Positions 42,791 through 57,985 of a DNA stretch of 64,000 nt are shown here, piece after piece. The notes under the pieces were generated by a model that ran no database searches, was not told the DNA's origin, and saw only the letters and a program-made list of their open reading frames with translations. Within the stretch, counting starts at the first letter, position 1, and every line of letters starts with the position of its first letter. Origin of the DNA: Fodinibius halophilus (GTDB lineage: Bacteria > Bacteroidota > Rhodothermia > Balneolales > Balneolaceae); assembly GCF_011059105.1 (NCBI RefSeq), contig NZ_JAALLS010000001.1, positions 313,399-377,398 on the forward strand, read 5' to 3'. A program made the position numbers and the translations under genes.

Positions 42791-44218
42791 ATGTATAAAA
42801 GAGGGACTACTATAGGTATACTGTTGCTGATCTTAGTATCATGTGGAACAGAGCAGTCTGAAAAAGAACAATCACAGCTCCTAACTGCCAATGAATTTAA
42901 GGCTGTTCCGATGCCCGACAAATTGATAACCGGAAATCCATTTCCAACGGATTCTACGACTATTAATAAATGGGTGGCATCGTCATCGGAGGTTAATAAC
43001 CTGGAAACAAATGGTAATATTATTGGTCATGGCTGGGGTATATGGCAGGCTCTTACCGAGTATACCGACCAAGAGAATAATGGTCAAAAGTTACGTCGTT
43101 TCGAAACGTGGTTTACCCCTGATGATATTATTGCGGCATATAAAAACAGGGAAAAAAATGAGCAGGTTAAACTTCATCACGTTAAACGTAATAGAGGGGA
43201 CTTAAAGACGCCCAACCAGTTTCATGCGAGTATGAAGGCACTGCCCGACCCCGGTGATGCCGGTGTAATCGGTTTTGTGAAGTATGATCCAACTGCTGCT
43301 GAACATATCTATGAAAATGATTTGTTCTATAAGAGTACGCTCAAAAAAATGGTGAAGAAGGATCAGATTGCCAATATCCCGGACTTCCCAAATAGCGGAG
43401 TGTCATTAAAACCGGTTTTTAAAACACTTACAGATCCTAATGACAAAGGTCTGTATTCTGTACCGGTTTGGCCCGGAGAGGAAGGAGATCCGGAACGGAA
43501 ATTTCCTTCTAGCGATTGGGACCACAGCGTGTTCGTTACAATTGATGGTGAAACAGAAACTTCCCAAAATATTTACTCGATAAACGATTTTATCCATTTT
43601 CAACTGGATTCTGCCCAAGCGCAGTCAAGAGATGTTAAACCGGGGACTTATGCAGTTTTGGCGGGTATGCATGTGACTACTCGTGAGATTACCCGCTGGA
43701 CATGGCAGACCTTTTGGTGGTCAGAGAGCCCCAATAATCCATATAGTCCTAGTTCTGGTACCATTGCAGGATACCGGCCATCCAAAAAATTAGATCGTGG
43801 GGCAAACCATTATGCGATGGCTGTTGCGTATAATATGGTTCAGCCTGCACAGCCCGAGCGGGGTGGTTCTGGGGCCGATGCAACATCGCTGTATGCTTAC
43901 AACCCATACCTTGAGGCAGGCTTTGGAGATTCAACGTTTATAAAAGGGAATGAAGCAGTTAGGAAATATTATCCCAAATCTTACCAGAAAGTGGGAGAAA
44001 AGATGAACCTTTACGGTATGCAAACAAACTGCATGAGCTGCCATGGGCAGGCTCGGTTTGACCCGCAATCAGTGGGGACGCACTTTTACCTTACCGATCA
44101 GTATTTTTCAATGGATGCCCCATATTTTAAGAATAAGGTAAAAGTCGATTTCACCTGGAGTATCATCGGGAATTTGATAGATGATAATGGAGAGCGTATA
44201 AAGGTTAACGAAAAATAA
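42791..44218 (+). CDS. Lipoprotein with one c-type haem motif
   Basis: 475 residues with a lipobox ending LVSC (Cys18). A single CxxCH haem-attachment motif, CMSCH, is at 414-418, preceded by YGMQTNCMSCHGQ. The long region between has no domain I recognise, but the pattern of conserved aromatic residues (GHGWGIWQ, WTWQTFWW) suggests a catalytic or binding domain. It probably sits in the outer membrane facing the periplasm as an electron-transfer or peroxidase-like protein. It stands alone after the long non-coding region. Confidence 0.7.
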   Translation: MYKRGTTIGILLLILVSCGTEQSEKEQSQLLTANEFKAVPMPDKLITGNPFPTDSTTINKWVASSSEVNNLETNGNIIGHGWGIWQALTEYTDQENNGQKLRRFETWFTPDDIIAAYKNREKNEQVKLHHVKRNRGDLKTPNQFHASMKALPDPGDAGVIGFVKYDPTAAEHIYENDLFYKSTLKKMVKKDQIANIPDFPNSGVSLKPVFKTLTDPNDKGLYSVPVWPGEEGDPERKFPSSDWDHSVFVTIDGETETSQNIYSINDFIHFQLDSAQAQSRDVKPGTYAVLAGMHVTTREITRWTWQTFWWSESPNNPYSPSSGTIAGYRPSKKLDRGANHYAMAVAYNMVQPAQPERGGSGADATSLYAYNPYLEAGFGDSTFIKGNEAVRKYYPKSYQKVGEKMNLYGMQTNCMSCHGQARFDPQSVGTHFYLTDQYFSMDAPYFKNKVKVDFTWSIIGNLIDDNGERIKVNEK

Positions 44219-44289: not shown

Positions 44290-46746
44290 TTATGTACCAA
44301 GCAGCAGTTTATTTTTGTATTTAACTGCTTGTTGTGGCTTGCCCATTGCTGAGTATAATTGACCCAACGTCTTTAATGCTTCTTTTGTGCGCCAGTCTTT
44401 TAGGCCGAACCTGTTTTTAAAGGTTTGAAAGGCATTAAGTAATGGTTGCTCAGCCTCAGTAAGTCGGCCCTGAAGCATCCAGGATACGGCAAGCACCCCT
44501 TTAGCTGCCCGTACCCGCCAGTGGTTTTCGGGAAAGGAATTAGATAGTACTGGGATAGCTTTGGTTAACAATTCCTGGGCCTGTTTTGGTTTGCCAAGCT
44601 TCAATAGAACTTGCCCTAATCGTACCTGGGATGCTGCTATGTGGGGATGTTCGGGAGGGAGGGTTTGTTTTCGAATCTTCAAGGCTTTTCTGTGCAGAGA
44701 ATCAGCTGAAAGTAAATCTCCTTTAGCATAAAGAGCAGAAGCAAGTAACGACAGGGTATTGGCAGTGGCGGGGTGTCCCTCAGGTGTTAATTGGTACCTG
44801 AATTCCAGTGTCTTGTTATAATAGGTAATTGCAGAGTCTAACTTTCCCTGATCTTTAAATACTGTTGCCAGATTATGATGCATAGTAGCTAAACTGGTAG
44901 TATCAATAAAATCCAGGTCAGCCAGTTGAATTGATCGTTTATACAGCTGTTGGGCTTTGTCCAGCTTTCCCCACTCCTGCATCAGAAGTCCCCAATCATT
45001 GTAAACAGGAGACAGCCTTGGGGTCTCAGGCCCAAAATTATCAATAAAAAGGTCATGCATATGTTGTAGCAAGGAATCAGATTCTGAAAATCTTCCCTGC
45101 CACATCTTAGAGGCAGCTAACTGCTGTAAAATGTTTCCTTTTAGCTGTATATCTTCCTCTGGAAGCTGAGTAGATATTTTTAAACCATCCGTTAAAATAG
45201 CTTCTGCTTTGGGGTACAGCGCCAGATTTTCATATATCAATCCCATTGTAAGCAGTAGGTCAGCCTGTATGGCCGGATATCCTTGTAGCTCTGTTTGTAC
45301 CTTTTTTGCCCCGTTATCCAACACCTCTTGTAATGTTAGATTGGGATTAGAATTGTCTATAAAGGGATCTGAGCTTTGGAGAATATTTACCAGGAAATTT
45401 TTTACTTGGTTCGCCTTCTGTGCTTCCAGTTGTGCTTGGTTGCGCTCTTGTGAAATCTGGATGGTATGATAGCTGATTAAGCCAATCAATATGATTAAAA
45501 AGGCCGCTGCGGTATTAATGGCAATTTTATTTCGTTTTAAGAATTTCGTTGCCACATAGCGAAAATGTCCGGCACGTGCTGTAATCGGTTGATCGTTACT
45601 AAAGCGACGCAAGTCTTCAATAAAGAGCTCAATGGAATTATACCGGTCAGCAGCATTTTTGCGCAGGCTTTTACATACAATAGCATCCAGATCTCCGGAG
45701 ATCAGCTTAAAAAGATTATGAGGTGAACAGCCTCGTTTTGCTGCGATTTTTGATTGGGTATTGGTATCTAAAGCACGAAAATGAGAAGAAGGTTTAGGAG
45801 CAGTTTTTTGAGTAATTCGTTTTTTTAGCGCGCCCCGATTTTTCGTTTCACCAGGTTCAAAAGGGTGAATACCGATCAGCAGTTTATATAAAACTATGCC
45901 CAGGGCATAATTGTCTGCCGCGGTGGTAATTGTTTCGTGATTTATCTGCTCCGGGGCAGCATAGGCCAGAGTAAGCATTCGTGCACCGGCCCGGGTCTGA
46001 TGGATATTCTCTATTTCGGAGTCGGAATCAAGCAGTTTTGCGATACCAAAATCCAAAATTTTCACCTCACCTTCCGGGGTGATGAGAATATTGGCAGGTT
46101 TTAAATCGCGGTGGATAACCAGGTTATTATGTGCATACTGCACAGCTTCACAAACTTTGCGGAACAGGCTAAGACGTTCATCAATAGAGAGGGTATGTTC
46201 ATCGCAATACTCATTAATAGGCTGGCCATCAATATATTCCATCACAAGGTATGGAAGCCCCTCATTGGTAACACCTCCATCATAAAGCCGCCCGATATGG
46301 GGGTGATGGAGACTGGCCAGGATATTTTGTTCCTGTTTAAAACGAGCAATATTGGAGGGGGTATCCATGCCACGCCGAATGATTTTAATAGCCACTTTAT
46401 GTTGGAAAGCTCCATCAGAGCGTTCGGCCAGATAAACCGATCCCATTCCGCCATGTTCGATTAATTCTGTGATGGAGTAGGCCCCAAGTTGTTTCCCAAC
46501 AAGAGAAGAGGTATGCTCATCAGGTAAATCCTCAATGATATTGGGAATAAGAATATCTTTTTCGACACTACCGGTTTCCAAGAATCCTTCCGAGGACTCA
46601 ATGGATTCCAACAGTTCGGTAATCCATGATTTGAGCTGCTTGTTATCGCCACATTGTTGTTCAATAAAGGGTTGGCGTTCGTTTTCTGATTTAGTTAACG
46701 CTTTATCAAGGATCTCTTCGACCCTATCCCAATTTGCATGGTCCAT
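44290..46746 (-). CDS. Ser/Thr protein kinase with TPR sensor region (kinase A)
   Basis: 818 residues in four parts. An N-terminal acidic helical region (1-80) is of the kind found in PknB-like kinases next to ECF sigma factors. The kinase domain (about 90-385) has glycine loop HGGMGSVYLA, VAIK Lys121, HRDLKPAN at 212-219, DFG at 232-234 and AAPEQ. A single membrane helix (408-427) follows. The periplasmic part (about 435-818) has TPR units such as ATMHHNLATVFKDQGKLDSA. All catalytic residues are present. The adjacent ECF sigma gene is its likely partner; 165 bp separate them. Confidence 0.9.
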   Translation of the reverse strand: MDHANWDRVEEILDKALTKSENERQPFIEQQCGDNKQLKSWITELLESIESSEGFLETGSVEKDILIPNIIEDLPDEHTSSLVGKQLGAYSITELIEHGGMGSVYLAERSDGAFQHKVAIKIIRRGMDTPSNIARFKQEQNILASLHHPHIGRLYDGGVTNEGLPYLVMEYIDGQPINEYCDEHTLSIDERLSLFRKVCEAVQYAHNNLVIHRDLKPANILITPEGEVKILDFGIAKLLDSDSEIENIHQTRAGARMLTLAYAAPEQINHETITTAADNYALGIVLYKLLIGIHPFEPGETKNRGALKKRITQKTAPKPSSHFRALDTNTQSKIAAKRGCSPHNLFKLISGDLDAIVCKSLRKNAADRYNSIELFIEDLRRFSNDQPITARAGHFRYVATKFLKRNKIAINTAAAFLIILIGLISYHTIQISQERNQAQLEAQKANQVKNFLVNILQSSDPFIDNSNPNLTLQEVLDNGAKKVQTELQGYPAIQADLLLTMGLIYENLALYPKAEAILTDGLKISTQLPEEDIQLKGNILQQLAASKMWQGRFSESDSLLQHMHDLFIDNFGPETPRLSPVYNDWGLLMQEWGKLDKAQQLYKRSIQLADLDFIDTTSLATMHHNLATVFKDQGKLDSAITYYNKTLEFRYQLTPEGHPATANTLSLLASALYAKGDLLSADSLHRKALKIRKQTLPPEHPHIAASQVRLGQVLLKLGKPKQAQELLTKAIPVLSNSFPENHWRVRAAKGVLAVSWMLQGRLTEAEQPLLNAFQTFKNRFGLKDWRTKEALKTLGQLYSAMGKPQQAVKYKNKLLLGT

Positions 46747-46781
46747 ATTTTAAACTCCCCTAAATGGTATTTCTAATAAAC

Positions 46782-46858
46782 TGTAGATAATTTTAGATAC
46801 TACAAACTTTAGTAAAGGAACAAAAAGTATTATTTAAATAAAAGTTAGAAGGGGGGAT
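46782..46858 (-). promoter_or_regulatory. Shared upstream motif pair before kinase A
   Basis: On the minus strand, AATCCCCC (46852-46860) lies upstream of ATTATCTACA (46782-46791), which is about 36 bp before the kinase A ATG. The same two strings in the same order precede the orphan ECF gene at 50690 (51335-51342 and 51281-51290). Candidate binding or promoter elements of one regulon. Confidence 0.45.
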
Positions 46859-46911
46859 TGCTTTTTGAGTAGTAGGTTAAAGTTGCTATGCCCTGAAAGG
46901 AAGGCGCTCGA

Positions 46912-47469
46912 TTATTTTAGTTCTTTATACAACCATCCCCGGGCCTTAGCCCAATCTCTCTTTACAGTGCTCACAGAAATATCCAACACATCTGCTGTTG
47001 CTTCAATGGTCATATCCCCAAAGAAACGAAGTTCTACAATATCTGCCATCCGCTGGCTGAGTTGGGCCAGTTCATCAAGCTTTCTATCAATTTCTAAAAG
47101 GGTCTCAGCACTGGTATCTTTATTTATTATTCCATCAATATATGTGAGATCGTATTGTTCTCCTCCTCGTTTATCAGCCTTCTTTTTGCGGGCATGATCA
47201 ATTAAAATCTGTCGCATACAGCGCGATGAAATGGCAAAGAAATGGTTGCGATCGGTGACTTTTATACTTCCTTGCTGAACCATTTTAAGATAGGCTTCAT
47301 GAACCAATGCTGTTTTAGAATAGGTTACCTCAGAATATTCCTTCTTTAACCGAGCGTGGGCAAGTTGTTTAAGCTGGTTATACACTAAAGGGAATAAGGT
47401 GTCGTAAGCCTCTTCTGAACCTTCCTTAATATGTACCAGTAGTTGCGTTATTTCCGCCTGAGACTTCAT
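46912..47469 (-). CDS. ECF sigma factor, TIGR02999-like (sigma A)
   Basis: 186 residues from the ATG at 47469 (longer in-frame starts upstream would run into the divergent promoter region). Sigma region 2 spans about 8-90 with LVHEAYLKM and FFAISSRCMRQILIDHARKKKADKRGG; region 4 (about 130-185) has VELRFFGDMTIEATADVLDISVSTVKRDWAKARGWLYKEL. This ECF type usually lies beside Ser/Thr kinases and lacks a classical anti-sigma gene; none is present here. It is divergent from a large lipoprotein gene, its probable target. Confidence 0.9.
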   Translation of the reverse strand: MKSQAEITQLLVHIKEGSEEAYDTLFPLVYNQLKQLAHARLKKEYSEVTYSKTALVHEAYLKMVQQGSIKVTDRNHFFAISSRCMRQILIDHARKKKADKRGGEQYDLTYIDGIINKDTSAETLLEIDRKLDELAQLSQRMADIVELRFFGDMTIEATADVLDISVSTVKRDWAKARGWLYKELK

Positions 47470-47653
47470 GTATGGGGAACAGGTAATAGATTCCAAAAAA
47501 TGTGTAGAGATATATTTGCGAGAATATAATAAATACTTTGAACCAATTGTACTGGCTACCCCGCATATGCAAGCAGTAGTACCCAAGGCTCTTCAAGAGT
47601 AGATAAGAATATATGTCTTGGATCTTAATCTCAATAAATAAAAAAATAAATTT

Positions 47654-49672
47654 ATGAAATATTTTGTTACTGTTATAGCGGTTATTACTTCTGTTTTTTT
47701 AATACAGGGGTGTAGCAGTAGTCCTTCGGGCTCAGGAAAATCGAGTAATCCCCCTACCTTAGATGCGGTAATAGATTATTCGCCCACGACTCCTGAAACC
47801 AACGCTGAAGTTACAATGGATGCCGGCAATTCTAAAGACGATCAAAATATCGGCTATGATATTCAATGGTCGCTTACGACTAAACCGGCAAACAGTACTG
47901 TTACATTTAGTAATACCACCCAATCAAAGATGAAGTTTACCCCTGATGTTGCAGGTGATTATGAAGTCAAACTGGAAATTGAAAATAGTTCAGAAGGTGT
48001 GACTGATGATGCTACAAAAGTTTTATCGGTTATATCATCCGAATCAACAGTAGAACTTGAAGGCGATATTAATACTGATAGTACTTTGACAGATATTTTT
48101 ACAGATCCCTCGGTTCCCGACTATCTGGTAGTAGGTGATCTTGATGTACATGCCAAACTAACTGTTGATCCCGGAGTTGTAATACATTTTGAGGAAAACT
48201 TGGGATTGAAAGTAGCTACTGATGGTATATTATCGGCAGTTGGTACCAGCGGTAATGGGATCATTTTCACCGGTGCAAGCCAATCCACAAACGGATTTTG
48301 GAAAGGCATAAATATCCATTCAAATACCGTGGAAAATGCTATTAAGTATGCTGAAATAAGCTATGGAGGCAGTAAGTCTGCGGGTACTTATTTTGAGGCT
48401 GCAAACCTGACGATTGACCAGGCAAAGGTTCAGCTTGCCAATACCAAAATATCAAACAGTGGAATGTTTGGAATCCAAACACGACGCAGTGGTTCCGAAT
48501 TCGCTATGGAAAATATGGAGTTCAGTAGTAATGATGATGAACATGCCTATGTCCATATTAGCCAGCTGGGTTATTTCGACAGCGGGAGTTCTTTTGACGG
48601 CGGATATGTAGAAGCTTTTGGCGGCTCAACGAAAGCTAATATGGATATTTCGGTGTTAAACGGAGCCAAATATAGTATTCTTGATCATGTAGGATTTGAT
48701 CACGTTGTAACCATTGATGCAGGTACTGAAATAGAGTTTATTGCTGATGCCGGTATTAAAGTAGGTAATAACGGTGTTATCAAAGCAGTAGGAGAAGCAA
48801 ATAATAAAATTGTGTTTACGGGTACTGTGAAAACTCCGGGAGCTTGGCGCGGTATCTTTGTAGGTTCGCCCTCTGTAGAGAACATCTTCAAACATGTTGA
48901 AATTAGTTACGGAGGAAGTACGAATATGGCTACCTATTTTGGTAAGACCAATATGGTGATTGACCGAGCACAGGTAGAGCTGGATAATGTCTCTATAACC
49001 GGAAGTGCCGGCTATGGCATTCAAACCCGACGAAATGGATCTGCCTTTACTGTAAGTAATGCTTCATTTGATAATAACCAAGACTCTCATATGCTCATTC
49101 ACCCAACGCAGGTTGACTTTGTTGACAACCAAACCAACTTTAATGGTGGCGATGTGGAAGTATATGGAGGAGATACAGAGGCCACAGGCAGTGAAACCTG
49201 GAGTAATCTTAACAACGGTACGTACTATTTTTCAAGTTCGGTAAGTATTGAAAAAGATGTGACGATCGAAGCCGGAACGCTTTTTGAAATGGGGACTGAT
49301 GTTAGGCTATTGGTATCCGGTGGTAACGATCAGGGAGTTATAAAAGCGATTGGGACCAGTAGTAATCCTATTACATTTACCGGTCGTTCAAAAGCAAAAG
49401 GGGCCTGGAGAGGGATCTTAATATCCTCTGGTTCTGTTGACAATGAAATGGATCATGTGTTAATAGAATATGGTGGAAGCAGTGATTTAGCAACGTATAT
49501 GCCGGCAGGTAACTTAGGTATATATAATAAGGCTTATCTGACTATATCGAATGCAGATATCGAAAACAGTGACAATTATGGCATCATGCTAAGAGAATCA
49601 CGAAGTGCAACCATGGGTGGGTCCAATATTTCATATTCTAATAATACTAATGATGATTTTTATGATTATTAG
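47654..49672 (+). CDS. Beta-helix lipoprotein with triplicated module (module A)
   Basis: 672 residues with a lipobox ending IQGC (Cys20). A PKD/Ig-like domain (about 35-130) contains DVAGDYEVKLEI. The remainder holds three copies of a parallel beta-helix unit of about 160-170 residues: each has a VDPGVVIHFEE-like strand, a 'GTSGNGIIFTG' element, WKGI/WRGI and EISYGGS, then YGIQTRR or YGIM. The last copy is shortened. It is probably displayed on the outer membrane. It diverges from ECF sigma A. Confidence 0.85.
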   Translation: MKYFVTVIAVITSVFLIQGCSSSPSGSGKSSNPPTLDAVIDYSPTTPETNAEVTMDAGNSKDDQNIGYDIQWSLTTKPANSTVTFSNTTQSKMKFTPDVAGDYEVKLEIENSSEGVTDDATKVLSVISSESTVELEGDINTDSTLTDIFTDPSVPDYLVVGDLDVHAKLTVDPGVVIHFEENLGLKVATDGILSAVGTSGNGIIFTGASQSTNGFWKGINIHSNTVENAIKYAEISYGGSKSAGTYFEAANLTIDQAKVQLANTKISNSGMFGIQTRRSGSEFAMENMEFSSNDDEHAYVHISQLGYFDSGSSFDGGYVEAFGGSTKANMDISVLNGAKYSILDHVGFDHVVTIDAGTEIEFIADAGIKVGNNGVIKAVGEANNKIVFTGTVKTPGAWRGIFVGSPSVENIFKHVEISYGGSTNMATYFGKTNMVIDRAQVELDNVSITGSAGYGIQTRRNGSAFTVSNASFDNNQDSHMLIHPTQVDFVDNQTNFNGGDVEVYGGDTEATGSETWSNLNNGTYYFSSSVSIEKDVTIEAGTLFEMGTDVRLLVSGGNDQGVIKAIGTSSNPITFTGRSKAKGAWRGILISSGSVDNEMDHVLIEYGGSSDLATYMPAGNLGIYNKAYLTISNADIENSDNYGIMLRESRSATMGGSNISYSNNTNDDFYDY

Positions 49673-49702
49673 TATTAGGCTCTAATTGATTTAAAGTGTT
49701 TG

Positions 49703-49734
49703 AGGACTGTCGTTTATTCGGCAGTCCTTTTTTT
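49703..49734 (+). terminator. Intrinsic terminator after the module A lipoprotein
   Basis: A 10-bp stem (49703-49712 with 49719-49728, one G-T), loop TTTATT, and a T run. Confidence 0.9.
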
Positions 49735-49808
49735 ATTGAGAGACTTATTATCAGCTTGTTACAGTATTTGTATATTCAGCGTCACTTATGATTTAAAATT
49801 TGGTGATT

Positions 49809-50681
49809 ATGATTAAAAAAAATGTGGAGCTCGCCCTTATCCAGTCTGCTTGTTCTGCTGATATAACGGAAAATATTGATAAGGCTACAAACAAAATTGA
49901 AGATGCTGCAAGAAAAGGCGCACAAATAATTATACTGCAGGAGTTATTTCAAACTCCCTATTTTTGTCAAACGATAAATGAAGAATTTTTTGACTGGGCA
50001 CAACCCATACCGGGTCCGCTGACTGATAAATTAACAACATTGGCCCGAGATCTGGAAGTGGTAATCGTAGCTCCATTTTTTGAACAAAGGGCAGCTGGTA
50101 TTTATCACAATTCATTGGTTGTTATTGATGCCGATGGCACGCTTATGGGCAGGTATCGAAAACAACATATTCCCGATGATCCATGCTTCCATGAAAAGTT
50201 CTATTTTACACCCGGTGATGATGGTTATAAAGTATTTAATACGCGTTTTGCTAAAATTGGTACTCTTATTTGTTGGGACCAATGGTATCCTGAAGCCGCA
50301 CGGATTACAGCCCTAAAAGGAGCAGAGTTATTAGTGTATCCCACAGCAATTGGAACGTTACCGCACGAAAAGGGTAAAGAAAAGAAAGAGTTTTTAGATG
50401 CTTGGCAAACGATCCAAAAAAGTCATGCCATTGCCAACAGTTGTTTTGTAGCAGCTGTTAACAGAACAGGGCAGGAAGGAAAAATAAGTTTTTGGGGGCA
50501 CTCTTTTGTCTCAGGACCATTCGGTAAAATACTAGCAGAAGCAGGCGATGATGATGAGGTATTAATTGTCGACATTGATTTATCACAAATTGAAAGTCAA
50601 CGAAGGATTTGGCCGTTTTATCGGGATCGTCGAATCGACACTTACCAACCTATAGTGAAACGATATATTGAAAATGAATAA
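49809..50681 (+). CDS. aguB: N-carbamoylputrescine amidase
   Basis: Carbon-nitrogen hydrolase of the nitrilase superfamily converting N-carbamoylputrescine to putrescine, CO2 and ammonia. About 290 residues from ATG 49809. The Glu-Lys-Cys triad is Glu45 (LQELFQTPYF), Lys118 (YRKQHIPDDP) and Cys155 (LICWDQWYPEAAR). The ELFQTPYFCQ and HIPDDPCFHEKFYF strings are typical of AguB. Agmatine deiminase lies 950 bp away on the same strand, with an opposite-strand sigma gene between. Confidence 0.93.
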   Translation: MIKKNVELALIQSACSADITENIDKATNKIEDAARKGAQIIILQELFQTPYFCQTINEEFFDWAQPIPGPLTDKLTTLARDLEVVIVAPFFEQRAAGIYHNSLVVIDADGTLMGRYRKQHIPDDPCFHEKFYFTPGDDGYKVFNTRFAKIGTLICWDQWYPEAARITALKGAELLVYPTAIGTLPHEKGKEKKEFLDAWQTIQKSHAIANSCFVAAVNRTGQEGKISFWGHSFVSGPFGKILAEAGDDDEVLIVDIDLSQIESQRRIWPFYRDRRIDTYQPIVKRYIENE

Positions 50682-50689
50682 CTATAATG

Positions 50690-51262
50690 TTAGTTGCTTA
50701 ACTTATTATATAGCCAATTTTTAGCCCTCTTCCAGTCTCGTTTGACCGTTCTTTCAGATAGCTTGAGCACATTTGCAATGCTTTGCATAGTCATGTTGTT
50801 AAAAAATCGCATTATTACGACTTCTGAAAGGCGGTTGTCGTACTTTTCGAGTTCGTCAATCTTTTTATCAATAAAAGCAGATCGTTTTTGGGGTTCCTCT
50901 GTTGGAATAAGTTCTTCATGAAATGGTACTCTCATGTTATTGCCGCCCCGTTTATCTGCGTGTTGTTTTCGAGCGTAATCTATCAATATTTGACGCATAC
51001 AGTTCGAAGCAATAGCCAAAAAGTGATTACAGTTTTGACATTTTAGCCCCTTCTGCTTCAACATTTTGAGATATACCTCGTGTACCAAGTCGGTATTGGT
51101 AATTCCAAGATGGATGTTTCTTTCGGGCTTAAGCTGCGAATAAGCCCGTTTTTTAAGCTCCTCGTAGAGAAGCGGAAATAGTTCATTATAGGTTTTTTGA
51201 GAACTATCAGGAAGATTATCAATCAGATGAGATATTTTTGCATGTTCTTCATCTAAAGCCAT
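50690..51262 (-). CDS. ECF sigma factor, TIGR02999-like, no adjacent kinase (sigma B)
   Basis: 190 residues with the same plan as sigma A and C: LVHEVYLKM and FLAIASNCMRQILIDYARKQHADKRGG in region 2, and VVIMRFFNNMTMQSIANVLKLSERTVKRDWKRAKNWLYNKL in region 4. Unlike the other two it has no neighbouring kinase or lipoprotein. It lies convergent with aguB (8 bp apart) and divergent from the aguA leader. Its control by kinase A or B in trans is a possibility suggested by a shared upstream motif. Confidence 0.88.
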   Translation of the reverse strand: MALDEEHAKISHLIDNLPDSSQKTYNELFPLLYEELKKRAYSQLKPERNIHLGITNTDLVHEVYLKMLKQKGLKCQNCNHFLAIASNCMRQILIDYARKQHADKRGGNNMRVPFHEELIPTEEPQKRSAFIDKKIDELEKYDNRLSEVVIMRFFNNMTMQSIANVLKLSERTVKRDWKRAKNWLYNKLSN

Positions 51263-51280
51263 ACCCTAACCCCTTTTTAT

Positions 51281-51342
51281 TGTAGATAATATTACTATAA
51301 AAAAGCATTTCTAGATATAAACTAAAATAAAATAGGGGGATT
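51281..51342 (-). promoter_or_regulatory. Shared upstream motif pair before sigma B
   Basis: ATTATCTACA (51281-51290, 18 bp before the sigma B ATG) and AATCCCCC (51335-51342) occur on the minus strand in the same order as in front of kinase A. The spacing differs (about 44 versus 60 bases), so they may be separate sites. Confidence 0.45.
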
Positions 51343-51350
51343 TGTCACTT

Positions 51351-51378
51351 TTGTTAAAAATATTACGCAATATATATG
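51351..51378 (+). promoter_or_regulatory. Candidate promoter for the aguA leader RNA
   Basis: TTGTTA at 51351-51356 and TATATG at 51373-51378 with a 16-base spacer, 40-50 bases upstream of the folded RNA. Assigned by pattern only. Confidence 0.4.
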
Positions 51379-51409
51379 TGAGGGGTACTTATAAAAGGTT
51401 ACCAAAAAG

Positions 51410-51555
51410 GAGAGGCGCTTAGTACAGCATCATGGGAGTGATGCTAAAATATAGCGCTGCACAGTGCAGCGCTCGAGGGTCAAAGAGAGGCGTCAGCAAT
51501 GACGTATATTAAGGTTAAGGGCAGTGGGGTTGGTACCCACTGTCCTTTTATTTTA
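51410..51555 (+). ncRNA. Structured RNA ending in an intrinsic terminator, upstream of aguA
   Basis: Four successive hairpins: 51424-51443 (7-bp stem, loop TGGGAG), 51454-51474 (perfect 9-bp stem AGCGCTGCA, 3-base loop), a short CGTCA/TGACG stem near 51492-51505, and a terminator (10-bp stem with one G-T, arms about 51523-51532 and 51540-51549, then TTTTATTTT). AGAGGCG is present twice, just before the first and third hairpins. It ends about 80 bp before the aguA start. Either a cis-acting riboswitch/attenuator of aguA or a free small RNA; I do not recognise a known class. Confidence 0.65.
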
Positions 51556-51632
51556 GCGCAGATATTTTATATTAGAAGAGATAGAAAAAAATAAGGGCGA
51601 AAATAAAACGGCATTCATTATAAGATCGATTT

Positions 51633-52700
51633 ATGCTTACCAATATACCTGCAGATTTGGATTTTAGTCTTCTTCCCGAATGGTATCCTCATTCAGCTAC
51701 ACAGTTACATTGGCCCTCCAATAGGCAAACCTGGCCCGGTAAGCGGTTAAAAAAAGTGGAGCATATCTATCTCGATATTATTGAGGTATTGCATAACTAC
51801 GAAGCAATTCATCTTTTCGTTGAAAATAAGAAGGTACACAAAGATGTTCTTTTTCTGTTAGAGGAAAGAGGCATTGATCTTAATCAAATCGTATTCCATA
51901 TACAGGCTATAAATGATGTGTGGGCACGAGATTGTGGTCCTTTATTTGTTTGCCGCGAAGACAATGGAGATATCGATTATGCTATTGTTGATTGGGAGTA
52001 TAATAGCTGGGGAGAAAAATATCCTCCATACGATGCTGATAATAAATTGCCGGATTATATAGCTTTTAAATATGGAATAACACGGTTCAATCCGGATATG
52101 GTGTTAGAGGGAGGGGCCATAGAAACCAATGGCGATGGGGTTTTGCTAACAACAGAATCAGTATTATTGAATCCCAACAGAAATCCCCAAATGACAAAAG
52201 GCGAAATTGAGAAACGGTTAAAGGATTATTTGGGGATACGAAAAGTGATATGGTTAAAAGGAGGACTGGCAGGGGATGATACCGATGGCCACGTAGATGA
52301 TGTTGCACGGTTTTTAAATGAAAATACTATTTTAGCGATGCGCGCTGATTCTGCAGATGATATAAATCACCAGGTCTTAGATGAGAATCTAAAAATATTG
52401 CACAAAGCAACAGGACGCCTGGGCTATTCTTTTGCTATCGAAACATTACCAATGCCACAAACGCGTATAGAGGGGGCCACGGTTGATGGATCCACTCATG
52501 TGCCCGCAAGTTATACAAATTTCTATATTGCTAACGGAGTAGTATTAGTTCCGTTGTATGATAAACGTTATGACAGGGAGGCAATGAGGCTCTTCAGGCA
52601 GTACTTCCCTGATCGTGATATTGTAGGTATTCCATGTGCTGATCTTGTATGGGGGCAGGGGGCAATTCATTGTATAACTCAACCATGGTATGGTTTATGA
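51633..52700 (+). CDS. aguA: Agmatine deiminase
   Basis: Hydrolyses agmatine to N-carbamoylputrescine, the substrate of AguB. 355 residues of the peptidyl-arginine-deiminase family. Motifs: NDVWARDCGPLFV, LEGGAIETNGDGVLLTTE, the catalytic acid/His segment DDTDGHVDDVARF and the nucleophile Cys347 in GAIHCITQP. It has the structured RNA as its leader and lies in the same orientation as aguB. Confidence 0.95.
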   Translation: MLTNIPADLDFSLLPEWYPHSATQLHWPSNRQTWPGKRLKKVEHIYLDIIEVLHNYEAIHLFVENKKVHKDVLFLLEERGIDLNQIVFHIQAINDVWARDCGPLFVCREDNGDIDYAIVDWEYNSWGEKYPPYDADNKLPDYIAFKYGITRFNPDMVLEGGAIETNGDGVLLTTESVLLNPNRNPQMTKGEIEKRLKDYLGIRKVIWLKGGLAGDDTDGHVDDVARFLNENTILAMRADSADDINHQVLDENLKILHKATGRLGYSFAIETLPMPQTRIEGATVDGSTHVPASYTNFYIANGVVLVPLYDKRYDREAMRLFRQYFPDRDIVGIPCADLVWGQGAIHCITQPWYGL

Positions 52701-52748
52701 TTTAAGCTGATAGTAATACTTTTTTAATCAGGCTAAGGCTCGGAAAGT

Positions 52749-55484
52749 TCAAGAAGACACTTTTTCCTTAACTTTCTCAATATATTTTAATGCTTCTTGT
52801 ACACGAGTGTTCTCTTCGTCAAAGTTTTTCCTGAAGACCGAAATAGCCTTGGAAAAGTAGTCCTCAGCTAACGAATATCTGTTCTGATAGTATTTTAGGG
52901 TACCGATATTCATATAGAATTCTCCAATACGGTAATGATCTTCTGGAAAATGATTTTCATAGATAGGTTGGGCCTTTATAAAAATGGAGTCAGCCTTATT
53001 ATACTGTTTAGCTTCTAATAAGATTGCTCCCAACTTATTTAAGTCTAACCCTACTTCGGGGTGCTCTTTTCCAAACCGTTTTTCATCAATGGAAATTACT
53101 TGTTCTAAGAGGCGTTGTGCTTTAGTATACTCGCCAAGGTCTTTAAGTACATCACCTAAGTTGTACATTGGAATTGCCAGATCAGGGTTGGTATTGTCTA
53201 CCTTCTTACGGTAAATAGAGAGTGACTTTTGATAGTTTATTTTAGCTTTACGCAGATTTCCCTGTGCTTTTTGAATAATTGCGAAATTATTTATGCTCTT
53301 GGCATATATGACACTCGAATCACCATAGATTGTATTTGTTAGCTCAATATCTTTCAGTGCATACTTTTCGGCCTTCTCCCAATTACCTAACACACGGTAA
53401 TTTCTGGCTAACAGTGCATAGTTTGCACTTAGATCTGAGCTATTGGAACCCTTTAACTGAGTAAACTCGTTCATCGATTGAAGAAGGTAGGTCTCAGCTT
53501 TTTTGTGCTTACTGGTACGATGATATAACAGGCCCATCCTGTATTTTGTGCGTGCTATTTCTGGATGAGAATGTTCGTAGTATTCTTCAAAATAGGAGAG
53601 GGCTTTTTTAAAGTTAGCCTCAGCAAGGTCGTATTTACCCAAAAATAGTTGAGTTTCTCCTAAGTTAGCCAGCGTAATGTAGTATGAGATATTCTGTGTT
53701 TTATTATAGATCTTCCGAAGACTATCTGACTTTAAAAAAAGTTTTTCAGCTTGTTTGTAGTGAGATTGCAGAAACTGATTACTTGCATATATAGAAAAGT
53801 ACCCTGCTAACTCGAGTGATCTATTACCGTTCAATTGTTTCTGTATATCAATGGCCTTACGGATATGTTTTTCAGCAAGATCATATTTATGGACTTCATG
53901 GTAATAGTTGCAAAGATGCGAATGAATTGTAGCAGTTTGCGAAGATATTTTTCCATAATATGCCAGGCTTTTCGCTAGTGCTTTTGTTAAGGCCTCCTCA
54001 GAAGTCTCAAATTCATCAATGTTCGATAGGGCATCACCGATGGCAGAAAGCATATCAATATAAATCTCCGATTCCCCTTGCAGCTCCCGTTCCGTACGGT
54101 GATACCCTGCAAGTAATAAGTCTTTTACTTTCGCATCCTTACCCGAATAACTTTTCATATCGGGGTTACCGGTATTAAACATCTGAAGCATAAAACTTTT
54201 TACCTGTTCAGCCCGTTTTGCTTGAAACTGAGCCTGATTGCGTTCTTGGGCTAACCGCCAGGTATAAAAGCCGGAAATACTAAATAGGAGTATTAGAACC
54301 CCTGCGGCAATAGCAATTCTTTGTTTATTTCGTTTAAAAAACTTTTGGCTGCGATAGCGCAAAGACCCTTCTCTTGCCGTAACCGGAATCCCGTTTTGGT
54401 AATTCTTCAGATCATCCAGAAATTCATTCGCCATACGGTAGCGATGCTCATATTCCTTGCGTATAGCTTTTAAGGCAATGGCATCCAGGTCTCCCCGGAG
54501 CTTTTTTTGAGTCTTGGTATCATCAACTTTGCTACTGGGTTTGTCGGCCTCCTGTTTTATGATAGTCTGTTCTATTTCGTATCTCGAAAGCTGATCAAAG
54601 TCAAAGGGATGAGTTCCCGCCAATAGCTGATAAAACATAATCCCCAGAGCATAAAGGTCGGTAGCGGTAGTACTATTTTCTTGCCGCACTTGCTCCGGGG
54701 CTGCATACCGGGGCGTTAGCAAACGAGAGCCGGTGATGGTGAGAGTGTCCTCCCGTTCATCTTCAAGCAGTTTAGATATACCAAAATCGAGAATTTTAAC
54801 CTTTCCTTCATCATCTATGAGGATATTGCCCGGTTTTAAATCTCGGTGGATTATTAAATTCTCATGGGCATATCGAACAGCTTTCAATACCTGTTTAAAC
54901 AGTGTGATCTTGGCATCAATATCCAATGAATACTTTTTGCAATATTGATCAATGGGAAGACCATCCACGTATTCCATAATGATATAGGGAAAGCCATCTT
55001 GGGTAATACCACCATCAAAAAGTTGGGCAATGCCCGGATGGTTCAGGTTAGCCAATATCTGTTGTTCTCTCTTAAATCGCCGGATATTCGATTTTGTAGC
55101 TCTACCATGGCGAATTATTTTAATGGCCACTTTATGGTCAAACTCTTCATCAGCTCGTTCGGCCATATATACCGTTCCCATTCCACCTTCTCCCAAGATC
55201 TCTTTAATAACATAGGGACCAACTTGTTGGCCAACTAAAGATTCAGCGGTTGTGATATGTTCTATTTCATCACTTACTTCTTCATAAAACTCTTTTTTAT
55301 AATCGGTGGGATTATCTAGCCACCCTTCCGATTCAAAAATAGACTCCAGAAGTTGGGTAACTTCTGATTTAAGCTCTTCGTTGTTGCTGCACTTCTGTTC
55401 AATAAAAGTAGGGCGATGTTCTTCAGGAAGATCCAATGCTTCGTCTACAATGGTCTCTACCTTTTGCCAGTCGAATTCACTCAT
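52749..55484 (-). CDS. Ser/Thr protein kinase with TPR sensor region (kinase B)
   Basis: 911 residues. The design equals kinase A: an N-terminal helical region (1-80), the kinase domain (about 90-375) with GEGGMGTVYMA, Lys122, HRDLKPGN at 213-220 and DFG at 233-235, a membrane helix at 388-407 and a long TPR array (about 415-905), for example ATIHSHLCNYYHEVHKYDLAEKH. All key residues are intact. It lies 80 bp downstream of sigma C on the same strand. Confidence 0.9.
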   Translation of the reverse strand: MSEFDWQKVETIVDEALDLPEEHRPTFIEQKCSNNEELKSEVTQLLESIFESEGWLDNPTDYKKEFYEEVSDEIEHITTAESLVGQQVGPYVIKEILGEGGMGTVYMAERADEEFDHKVAIKIIRHGRATKSNIRRFKREQQILANLNHPGIAQLFDGGITQDGFPYIIMEYVDGLPIDQYCKKYSLDIDAKITLFKQVLKAVRYAHENLIIHRDLKPGNILIDDEGKVKILDFGISKLLEDEREDTLTITGSRLLTPRYAAPEQVRQENSTTATDLYALGIMFYQLLAGTHPFDFDQLSRYEIEQTIIKQEADKPSSKVDDTKTQKKLRGDLDAIALKAIRKEYEHRYRMANEFLDDLKNYQNGIPVTAREGSLRYRSQKFFKRNKQRIAIAAGVLILLFSISGFYTWRLAQERNQAQFQAKRAEQVKSFMLQMFNTGNPDMKSYSGKDAKVKDLLLAGYHRTERELQGESEIYIDMLSAIGDALSNIDEFETSEEALTKALAKSLAYYGKISSQTATIHSHLCNYYHEVHKYDLAEKHIRKAIDIQKQLNGNRSLELAGYFSIYASNQFLQSHYKQAEKLFLKSDSLRKIYNKTQNISYYITLANLGETQLFLGKYDLAEANFKKALSYFEEYYEHSHPEIARTKYRMGLLYHRTSKHKKAETYLLQSMNEFTQLKGSNSSDLSANYALLARNYRVLGNWEKAEKYALKDIELTNTIYGDSSVIYAKSINNFAIIQKAQGNLRKAKINYQKSLSIYRKKVDNTNPDLAIPMYNLGDVLKDLGEYTKAQRLLEQVISIDEKRFGKEHPEVGLDLNKLGAILLEAKQYNKADSIFIKAQPIYENHFPEDHYRIGEFYMNIGTLKYYQNRYSLAEDYFSKAISVFRKNFDEENTRVQEALKYIEKVKEKVSS

Positions 55485-55564
55485 GTTAGGTGCATGTCAT
55501 ATTAATTATTACCTATTGTCCTTCACCCTCATTATACGCAAAAGATTGTATAGGGTAGGTCAAA

Positions 55565-56143
55565 TCACTCTACTTCAAAACGAGCTTTCAGCTCTTTGTA
55601 AAGCCAGCCTCGTGCCTTCATCCAATCTCGTTTTACAGTACTTTCAGAAACTTCCAATGCATTTGCCGTCTCTTGAATAGTCATTTCCCCAAAAAATCGC
55701 ATTTCAACAACCTTGCTTAACCTGCTGTTGAGTTTTTCCAACCTGTTCAAGGCCGCATCAATATCCAAGAGTTCCTGTGTTTTTTGATTCTGAGCCTTAA
55801 AAAGTTCGTCAATGTAGGTGAGGTCTTTCTTTTGGCCCCCGCGTTTTTTAGCCGTCTTTTTGCGTGCGTAATCGATTAATATTTGGCGCATACATCGCGA
55901 GGCGATGGCTAAAAAATGGCCTCGGTCATTAAAATTAATTTTCGACTGATCAATCATTTTTAAATAGGCCTCGTGCACCAGTTCAGTCTTTGAAAGAGTA
56001 TGGTCCGGAGATTGACGCCGCATATGTGAATAGGCTAGCTTTCTAAGCTCTTCATATATAAGAGGGTAAAGTTTTTCATAGACTTCATCTTGACCGTCTT
56101 TTAACTGACAAAGGAGTTGAGTGACTTCTGATCGCGATTCCAT
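55565..56143 (-). CDS. ECF sigma factor, TIGR02999-like (sigma C)
   Basis: 192 residues. Region 2 has LVHEAYLKMIDQ and FLAIASRCMRQILIDYARKKTAKKRGG; region 4 has VEMRFFGEMTIQETANALEVSESTVKRDWMKARGWLYKEL. It is first in an operon with kinase B and is divergent from a second beta-helix lipoprotein 111 bp away. It is close in sequence to sigma A, so the two modules probably arose by duplication. Confidence 0.9.
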   Translation of the reverse strand: MESRSEVTQLLCQLKDGQDEVYEKLYPLIYEELRKLAYSHMRRQSPDHTLSKTELVHEAYLKMIDQSKINFNDRGHFLAIASRCMRQILIDYARKKTAKKRGGQKKDLTYIDELFKAQNQKTQELLDIDAALNRLEKLNSRLSKVVEMRFFGEMTIQETANALEVSESTVKRDWMKARGWLYKELKARFEVE

Positions 56144-56254
56144 AGATGATTGTACCTGAATGACCTGATTTATAATCTCTTGTCGTATGTAATAGTGAAA
56201 GACGATGTATAATGTTCCGACAATTAAAGATTCCTAATATCAAATTACTAAAAC

Positions 56255-57985
56255 ATGTATAACAAAGCTACAATATTCGGAGTTATCATTTCATTACTAA
56301 TACTTATCGGTTGCTCAGGTAATAGTACCGGACCCGATAACAATGGTGGCAATAATAATGGAGGTGGTAATACATCTTCTGCTACAGCTGATGCGGGAAC
56401 TAATGCTGATGAAGTTGTGGGTTTTGAAATAACGGCAGATGGCTCCGGCTCATCAGGCAGTGGTACAATAAATTACGCTTGGAGTTTTGTCAGTCAGCCT
56501 GCTAACAGTAGTTCAATGCTATCAGATGCATCTGCAGAAAAACCAAGTTTTATGCCTGATTTGCCTGGAGAGTATAGTCTAGAACTGGAGGTAAGCTCCG
56601 ACGGAGAAACAGATACGGATACTGTTACGTACTCGGCTATAGCCAAACGAATTTTTGTTGATGCCAATAGTGGTAGTGATGGAGATACCGACGGCTATAT
56701 GGAGGCGACTCCATTGAAAACGGTATCGGCAGCGTTATCCCGCATTAGTAATAATGACAGCGACCCATTTTTGGCCATAGATACCATGCGTGTTGCAAAA
56801 GGGACCTATGATAAAGATAACGGAGAAAGTTATCCCCTTGTCTTTACTGGTGACTTAATTGTAAAGGGAGACCAAAATGCCGATCGAAATAATATTCATC
56901 TTCTCAGTCCCGATGTTGATAGAGATCCTGCCCTGAAAGTAGGAGAGGGGGTAACGCTGCGACATCTGCACATTGAGAATGGCTATACTGGGGGCACTTT
57001 TAATGGTGATCCTGATGCAGTATATGTTTATAGCGGTAGTGATATGGATACATCAACTGTTGTATTAGAAGATGTTAAGATATCAATGAACGCTCGAGAG
57101 GGGGTTGCTGTGTCGACGGGATCAAATATAACCGTTGCTATTCGGGGTTATGATGGCGCCCGCAGTTTAATTAATGGGAATAATATTGGCCGGGCTTACG
57201 TGAATCGATTTAATGTCTCGAATATAACGCTCAATATTGACGATACTGATATTTTAAATACCGGAGATGTCGGGGCAATTGAGGTGGATGATGCTCATAA
57301 TATTGCTATCAATGTCACTAATTCGAAATTTAAGCCCGGGGTTGGTCATGTAAATCCCTATGCCTTCGATTTGGAAGACGATGTGGATCTTACGCTCAAA
57401 AATTCAACTATTACCAGCAGCACAGGAACAGCATCTGGTGCTCGTTTTAAATATGGAATAGTAATGGATAATGATCAGCCTAATACTAATCTAGAGATTC
57501 TTAATTCGACTATTCAGTTTACGCAGTGGTCGGCGGTTTTAATGCGCGCTTCTGTTGTAAAAATCACTGATAGTATTATTGAAGGAGTGCTTACACACGA
57601 GTCTAGTGTAAATTTAGCATATGATGCTATCAGGCAGCTCGATGGTACGCTGATAGTGCGTGGAACTACATTCAAGGATATCAATACCAGTGCGATAGAC
57701 GTTGGCGGACCTAATGCACCCAATGACAACAACTTTTCTGTAGATTTGGGTACAGACGGGGATCCGGGCAACAATGTATTTCAGAATGTGCAGGGTTGGG
57801 ATGTACAAGTCTCGCGCAGTGATGAAGTACAGTCCGAAATACCAGCCATTGGAAATACATGGTCTAATGGTGCAGCGCCCAGATGTGATCAGGATCTTAA
57901 TGATTATGACGTTGCTGAGATATGGGTCAATGACCAAGGAGGAAGTCTGCGCTGGGGAGCCGGAAGTTCAGAAGTTTGTAATTAA
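56255..57985 (+). CDS. DUF1565/beta-helix lipoprotein (module C)
   Basis: 576 residues with a lipobox ending LIGC (Cys20) and a Gly/Asn-rich tether. A PKD/Ig-like domain (about 40-130, ending in PGEYSLELEV) precedes IFVDANSGSDGDTDGYMEATPLKTVSAAL, the characteristic entry of DUF1565. Right-handed beta-helix turns follow to about residue 520. It has the same architecture as the module A lipoprotein but little sequence identity in the helix. It diverges from sigma C. Confidence 0.85.
   Translation: MYNKATIFGVIISLLILIGCSGNSTGPDNNGGNNNGGGNTSSATADAGTNADEVVGFEITADGSGSSGSGTINYAWSFVSQPANSSSMLSDASAEKPSFMPDLPGEYSLELEVSSDGETDTDTVTYSAIAKRIFVDANSGSDGDTDGYMEATPLKTVSAALSRISNNDSDPFLAIDTMRVAKGTYDKDNGESYPLVFTGDLIVKGDQNADRNNIHLLSPDVDRDPALKVGEGVTLRHLHIENGYTGGTFNGDPDAVYVYSGSDMDTSTVVLEDVKISMNAREGVAVSTGSNITVAIRGYDGARSLINGNNIGRAYVNRFNVSNITLNIDDTDILNTGDVGAIEVDDAHNIAINVTNSKFKPGVGHVNPYAFDLEDDVDLTLKNSTITSSTGTASGARFKYGIVMDNDQPNTNLEILNSTIQFTQWSAVLMRASVVKITDSIIEGVLTHESSVNLAYDAIRQLDGTLIVRGTTFKDINTSAIDVGGPNAPNDNNFSVDLGTDGDPGNNVFQNVQGWDVQVSRSDEVQSEIPAIGNTWSNGAAPRCDQDLNDYDVAEIWVNDQGGSLRWGAGSSEVCN

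Follow-up and report, generated by a model that had tools for sequence, protein, structure and literature searches.

We analyzed a 64,000-nucleotide stretch of the genome of Fodinibius halophilus, a salt-loving member of the Balneolaceae (contig NZ_JAALLS010000001.1, positions 313,399 to 377,398; hereafter the window), in which positions 44,290 to 57,985 carry two cassettes of the same design: the genes for an extracytoplasmic function (ECF) σ factor and a membrane-anchored Ser/Thr kinase on one strand, and a gene for a large lipoprotein diverging from the σ factor gene. A third, kinase-less σ factor gene lies between them. This layout had been proposed from the nucleotide sequence alone (the original prediction), and all of its parts are found at or near the places given there. 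In window coordinates, the features are:

44290–46746, minus strand: kinase 1 (818 amino acids), with a 60-amino-acid helical N-terminal domain, a Hanks Ser/Thr kinase domain, one transmembrane segment and C-terminal tetratricopeptide repeats (TPRs)
46912–47469, minus strand: σ factor Sigma 1, TIGR02999/ECF43-like, with SKTA in region 2.2, the Thr of which falls on the ECF43 phosphosite
47537–47567, plus strand: candidate σ-type promoter of lipoprotein 1, TTTGAACCA-N13-CCCCGCATA, 86 nt before the ATG
47654–49672, plus strand: lipoprotein 1 (672 amino acids), lipobox Cys20, PKD domain, parallel β-helix
50690–51262, minus strand: σ factor Sigma 2 (middle), motif TNTD, which retains the Thr; no kinase
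51340–51371, plus strand: predicted σ-type promoter toward agmatine deiminase, ATTTGTCAC-N14-TTACGCAAT
51372–51555, plus strand: highly structured RNA, the end of which forms a hairpin resembling an intrinsic terminator
51633–52700, plus strand: agmatine deiminase, probable direct or read-through target of Sigma 2
52749–55484, minus strand: kinase 2 (911 amino acids), with N-terminal domain, Hanks kinase domain, transmembrane segment and TPRs
55533–55565, minus strand: predicted σ-type promoter of kinase 2, ATTTGACCT-N15-TTGCGTATA, in the gap between the Sigma 3 and kinase 2 genes, 48 nt before the start
55565–56143, minus strand: σ factor Sigma 3, TIGR02999/ECF43-like, motif SKTE (compare QATE of EcfK)
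56158–56189, plus strand: predicted σ-type promoter of lipoprotein 2, GAATGACCT-N14-TGTCGTATG, 65 nt before the ATG
56255–57985, plus strand: lipoprotein 2 (576 amino acids), lipobox Cys20, PKD domain, DUF1565-type β-helix

For comparison, 57 loci were retrieved from this genome (G000; 4.19 Mb in 91 contigs) and 26 relatives; the named Fodinibius relatives include F. roseus, F. sediminis and F. salsisoli. In the following, G denotes genomes, L fetched loci and C contigs of the F. halophilus genome. Genes, signal peptides and lipoproteins were called by rule.

All three σ factors of the window pass the cut-offs of NCBIfam family TIGR02999 and Pfam family PF07638. For Sigma 1, the ATG at 47469 is the likely start; a TTG-started form of 224 amino acids was rejected as too long. 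A profile search identified nine strong PF07638 σ factors in the genome, spread over seven contigs, and the three-σ cluster is complete in a second Fodinibius species (L047). A tree of 62 related σ factors resolves a clade around Sigma 3 (the "pck" clade), a xerC clade and a uvrA clade, and places Sigma 2 as the fast-evolving sister of the σ factor of L073, whose kinase is retained. By gene layout, Sigma 2 has neither a kinase nor a lipoprotein of its own.

No anti-σ gene is present near the σ factors of the window, as the original prediction had it, and the phospho-acceptor Thr of kinase-linked ECF43 σ factors is conserved. The DAED acids of region 2.2 are lost and a Thr stands in their place, as in the known ECF43 forms QTTA, STTA and QATE; by count, the phosphosite positions are T53 (Sigma 1), T57 (Sigma 2) and T53 (Sigma 3). 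A Thr occupies the site phosphorylated in EcfP and EcfK in all nine TIGR02999 σ factors of the genome and in nearly all of the 62 related ones; it is missing from the other ECF σ factors of F. halophilus with a readable region 2.2. Sigma 1 and Sigma 3 also adjoin a gene for a Hanks-type Ser/Thr kinase, another hallmark of ECF43, and Sigma 2 does not. Our ECF43 assignment rests on the family cut-offs, the Thr motif and the adjacent kinase. In EcfP and EcfK, as reported (PMC8999054, PMC13147305), the region 2.2 acids are replaced, and the neighboring kinase phosphorylates the Thr. By homology to EcfP and EcfK, the kinases of the window probably activate their partner σ factors through phosphorylation.

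Both kinases match PF00069 and TPR_12, retain intact VAIK, HRDLKPxN, DFG and APE motifs, and have a single transmembrane segment near residues 390–425, with transmembrane windows at 388–414. With an N-terminal extension, a full Hanks kinase, one transmembrane segment and C-terminal TPRs, they show the architecture of PknS/PknT-type receptor kinases. The best PDB sequence match of kinase 2 is PknS (9EED), aligned over residues 5–361; since the alignment starts at residue 5, it covers the N-terminal extension. The orthologues of kinase 2 show strong conservation in their kinase half, whereas their TPR half diverges fast, with almost no invariant columns, which is as expected if the kinases sense differing inputs. 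At four loci of the Sigma 3 clade (L052, L056, L066 and L069), two tandem TPR kinases take the place of one.

The two lipoproteins share an N-terminal region of about 135 amino acids (34% identity); their C-terminal parts differ, both being β-helical. In the AlphaFold model of lipoprotein 1 (mean predicted local distance difference test score 80.5), a long all-β array comes after the PKD domain; its matches in the PDB are weak, PL6 lyases and antigen 43 being among them. Divergent partners of these σ factors within the genus are lipoproteins in 19 of 26 cases, compared to nine of 118 gene sides when the remaining divergent pairs at the same loci are counted (Fisher P = 1.1e-11, with orthologous loci not independent). 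The divergent σ–lipoprotein arrangement thus exceeds chance. It does not extend to all cassettes: at σ–kinase pairs next to xerC, tandem arrays of two to seven lipoproteins converge on the kinase instead, with seven on contig C78. The cassette lipoproteins belong to mutually unrelated families (29 collagen-like, 21 of the IPT/TIG and TTGxLEV types, nine PKD/β-helix, and others), and the lipoprotein opposite an orthologous σ factor of the Sigma 3 clade varies from species to species.

An absence of lipoproteins from most other loci, which would speak against the original prediction, does not occur within the genus, where by our own count lipoproteins adjoin about 27 of 36 loci. Outside it, such an absence is seen: in Gracilimonas, Rhodohalobacter and Balneola, the orthologous σ factor lacks an adjacent lipoprotein, often while still residing in the prfA–pckA or agmatine deiminase neighborhood, and we rejected the idea that a lipoprotein accompanies every σ–kinase pair. 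Because these sister genera keep the σ factor without lipoproteins, the association with lipoproteins is largely an elaboration within Fodinibius and not a fixed part of the pair. On contig C45 (L080), a xerC-clade σ–kinase pair is inserted beside the genes for ribosomal proteins S6 and L9, with no lipoprotein neighbor and without a detected match to the motif described below. Between pckA and kinase 1 (window 42791–44218) lies a gene for a lipoprotein of 475 amino acids that has a haem-type motif, CxxCH, close to the C terminus and no Pfam or NCBIfam match.

The cassette lipoprotein genes are preceded by a common sequence. In a first pattern count, TTGTC-N17-TACG was found before 14 of 65 cassette lipoproteins (nine loci) and before none of 407 other genes. 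Expectation-maximization yielded the motif (A)TTTG[T/A][C/G]C[C/T]-N13/14-TTACG[C/T]AT, a two-box element of the ECF type. Scored at a threshold of 12 bits with the locus in question omitted from training, it precedes 46 of the 65 cassette lipoproteins, compared to two of 390 dinucleotide shuffles and nine of the 407 other genes; most of the seven background matches listed belong to secreted proteins, lipoproteins missed by our rule, or agmatine deiminase. The spacer is 14 nt long in 45 of the 46 matched lipoproteins, and most –10 boxes end 36–90 nt before the ATG.

The motif also occurs away from the cassettes. In genome scans, where the reversed pattern served as control, the exact pattern gave 19 matches in F. 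halophilus compared to five for the control, and those outside coding frames lie ahead of a gene for a lipoprotein (with unlinked examples on C8 and C34), for a conserved membrane protein or for a microprotein. This membrane protein (about 340 amino acids, MDLDFKKA...) has the motif upstream in three Fodinibius genomes (L097, at G000:C23:220066, L133 and L137). As an out-of-training set, 20 strongly matching regions outside σ loci were taken from eight genomes; 16 of the 19 matches with a downstream gene start precede a gene for a signal-peptide protein or lipoprotein. No excess of the class I pattern was seen in genomes of other genera lacking these σ factors. The loose class II pattern, counted over 16 genomes, did not exceed its reversed control in raw number, and only its higher-scoring matches are informative. 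Apparently gene-less matches at L066, L033, L046 and L062 were rejected as small-RNA genes for want of consistent terminators, and a similar-looking match at L050 in fact precedes a microprotein gene.

The subtype of this promoter follows the clade of the neighboring σ factor. At xerC loci, 21 of 24 classifiable promoters are of the TGTCC/CGCA subtype, and all 18 promoters at loci of the Sigma 3 clade are of the TGASC subtype (counts 21, 3; 0, 18; Fisher P = 7.5e-9). Variation in the –35 box goes along with variation in the –10 box (27, 0; 4, 21; P = 6.6e-11). At uvrA loci, the adjacent collagen-like lipoprotein has a TGTCG/CGCA promoter. Three xerC arrays each hold one lipoprotein of the other subtype, and these species also possess a σ factor of the Sigma 3 clade. 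Because promoter subtype follows σ clade, the data suggest mostly separate σ–promoter channels with few cross-wires rather than general cross-talk. The cross-talk anticipated from the proximity of the three σ factors is thereby mostly contradicted at the DNA level, a few arrays with one promoter of the other subtype being what is left of it. At the uvrA locus on contig C12 (L077:4358-6389), two collagen-like lipoproteins beyond the kinase have a Sigma 3-type and a xerC-type promoter, and the divergent lipoprotein has one of the uvrA subtype; this single locus is possibly wired to three σ factors.

Within the window, the promoter of lipoprotein 2 is kept in G010, and so is the one in front of kinase 2, with similar kinase promoters at L049, L054, L056, L065 and L069. 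We propose that the motif before kinase 2 could provide positive feedback. The copy upstream of agmatine deiminase is kept in G010 and G009. The stretch of about 185 nt that follows it folds far better than shuffled sequences (z = –6.2), and may represent a leader/attenuator or a small RNA. It has no Rfam family at E ≤ 1; a genus-wide DNA search matched only the close relative G010, and a diverged version is present in L073. In Balneola EAC52 (L112), the motif is likewise followed by a terminator before agmatine deiminase, the sequence being different from that of the window RNA. Judged by this arrangement, Sigma 2 probably serves agmatine deiminase and/or the structured RNA, not a lipoprotein.

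A further type of predicted target derives from the kinases themselves. The roughly 60 residues ahead of the kinase domain form a conserved domain (N-domain) with an invariant W6 and a nearly invariant C32. It has no Pfam family; its AlphaFold model is a three-helix unit. A fold search against the PDB gave no informative match and no link to anti-σ factors, a result that does not exclude such a link. In the PknS study, an extension of about 80 amino acids was noted and helices were predicted for it; it was unseen in the crystal and no function was given. Lone N-domains follow directly after kinase-less σ factors on C67 of F. halophilus, in Balneola EAC52 and in Gracilimonas mengyeensis. In ten of 12 Fodinibius genomes, they occur as genes of 60–63 amino acids, usually closing the xerC lipoprotein array; in F. 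sediminis (G001), the microprotein gene adjoins xerC, at the site of the σ–kinase pair in other species. Copies lie at L103:8690-8872 (plus strand) and L050:2336-2521 (minus strand), in L147, L148, L149, L150, L152 and L153, and at L081:6921-7181, L112:9639-9818 and L117:9651-9857. All ten Fodinibius microprotein genes and the C67 copy have the motif 31–64 nt upstream with a spacer of 14 (14.0–23.6 bits), and the motif model was trained without any microprotein gene. The microproteins are under purifying selection, with ratios of non-synonymous to synonymous polymorphism (pN/pS) of 0.19–0.51. The N-domain probably contacts the σ factor or the kinase, with the free form acting as a feedback competitor. 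More tentatively, and without favoring it over other roles, we suggest that the PknS-type N-domain could be a portable σ-docking or control module whose free copies, produced from the σ factor's own promoter and occupying the position of the kinase next to some kinase-less σ factors, serve as anti-σ or competitor microproteins, closing a negative feedback loop in phospho-activated ECF43 signaling.

The layout, the phosphosite residue, the shared promoter, the subtype–clade match and the microproteins are read directly from the sequence. We consider it quite likely that each cassette is a kinase–σ phospho-relay to the cell surface, with lipoproteins as output and feedback included. In this model, the TPR domain of the membrane kinase would lie in the periplasm and sense an envelope signal, upon which the kinase would phosphorylate its partner ECF43-type σ factor at the conserved Thr of region 2.2. 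The phosphate would supply the charge required for binding to RNA polymerase, and the activated σ factor would recognize the two-box promoter (approximately TTTGWSCY and TTWCGYAT, a fixed distance apart) in front of surface lipoprotein genes, both adjacent and scattered, and of genes for certain other secreted proteins. In module 2, this promoter would also drive the kinase gene as positive feedback, and across most of the genus it would drive the 60-amino-acid N-domain microprotein, a probable feedback competitor acting on the σ factor or the kinase. Phosphorylation, direct binding by the σ factor, the direction of sensing and the action of the microproteins are the steps that we infer. Because the lipoproteins have a σ-type promoter in common, the subtype of which follows the σ clade, they are most likely the output, and the suggestion of a surface output made in the original prediction is borne out to this extent.

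Several observations weigh against this model. About 30% of the cassette lipoproteins have no clear match to the motif (for instance on C24 and in most of the L064 array), and the match of lipoprotein 1 itself is weak at 9.8 bits with its own locus left out, even if it is kept in G010. A search for autoregulation revealed no convincing motif upstream of the σ factor genes. Possibly, a second regulator distributed like these σ factors could read the motif. Moreover, the lipoprotein assignment is rule-based and made without a trained predictor, and orthologous and related loci are counted together, so that they are non-independent in the counts and Fisher tests. Finally, an acid follows the Thr in Sigma 2 (TNTD) and Sigma 3 (SKTE), as in EcfK, and these two σ factors may be partly active in the unphosphorylated state.

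Taken further, the latter point would mean that the σ factors work unphosphorylated by virtue of the SKTE/TNTD acid and that the kinase tunes another target, for example the N-domain microprotein or an enzyme of the envelope. The persistence of kinase-less σ factors (Sigma 2, C67, L112 and L117) and the acid adjoining the Thr speak for this explanation; yet EcfK has the equivalent QATE and is controlled by PknS, the pairing of σ and kinase genes is conserved, and the Thr is found in nearly all of the 62 σ factors. We regard it as unlikely.

Similarly improbable in our view is the other role offered in the original prediction, that the lipoproteins are sensed ligands. An outer-membrane lipoprotein would then bind the periplasmic TPR domain and control the kinase, adjacency would reflect co-inheritance of sensor and ligand, and the promoter would provide only feedback. 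The diverging TPR half next to a conserved kinase half and the turnover of lipoproteins at orthologous loci are compatible with such co-diversification, and the kinase gene of module 2 shares the motif. However, arrays of two to seven unrelated lipoproteins per kinase and the many targets unlinked to a kinase suit an output regulon better.

That the lipoproteins merely populate an insertion hotspot or expanding array under housekeeping or other ECF control, with the motif belonging to another σ factor, is very unlikely: σ factors without lipoproteins in sister genera and lipoproteins without the motif would fit, but the promoter subtype goes with the clade to which the neighboring σ factor belongs, the motif is found in front of kinase 2, agmatine deiminase and the kinase-derived microproteins as well, and genomes of other genera without these σ factors show no class I excess.

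The phospho-relay favored here resembles the ECF43 systems EcfP–PknT of Vibrio parahaemolyticus and EcfK–PknS of Xanthomonas citri as described in PMC8999054 and PMC13147305: a TIGR02999-type σ factor beside a membrane Hanks kinase, no anti-σ factor, a Thr replacing the DAED acid in region 2.2, and kinases with a helical N-terminal extension of about 80 amino acids, one transmembrane segment and periplasmic TPRs. These are the only two kinase-activated ECF43 systems with characterized outputs in the literature consulted. Their output is polymyxin resistance or the type VI secretion system, whereas the predicted output in Fodinibius consists of surface lipoproteins with a defined promoter. Fodinibius further differs in its many paralogous cassettes per genome, the promoter feedback on the kinase and the stand-alone N-domain microproteins. 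Canonical anti-σ-controlled ECF σ factors, including FecI/FecR, share with our loci the ECF σ factor, the envelope genes and the adjacent two-box promoters; in contrast, the Fodinibius σ factors have a kinase instead of a nearby anti-σ factor and lack the acidic DxxD in region 2.2. Groups ECF59, 61, 62, 217 and 283, predicted to be kinase-linked, also have an adjacent Ser/Thr kinase, but are reported to carry a DAED-like acidic motif (PMC8999054), unlike the ECF43-type Thr found here.

An open-access literature search revealed no paper on these Fodinibius lipoprotein loci. What is new and directly testable is the promoter, together with the microproteins. The cassette is real and recurrent, a form of ECF43 kinase–σ signaling with a changeable surface-lipoprotein regulon as its probable output. 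Fodinibius, with as many as nine paralogous cassettes, thereby gains a predicted promoter, a predicted fast-changing lipoprotein regulon and a feedback architecture made up of the kinase promoter and the N-domain microprotein. If this model is true, ECF43 signaling would be a general switch of cell-surface composition, and a function would be assigned to the N-domain, a conserved part of the kinases that does not show in the sole solved structure.

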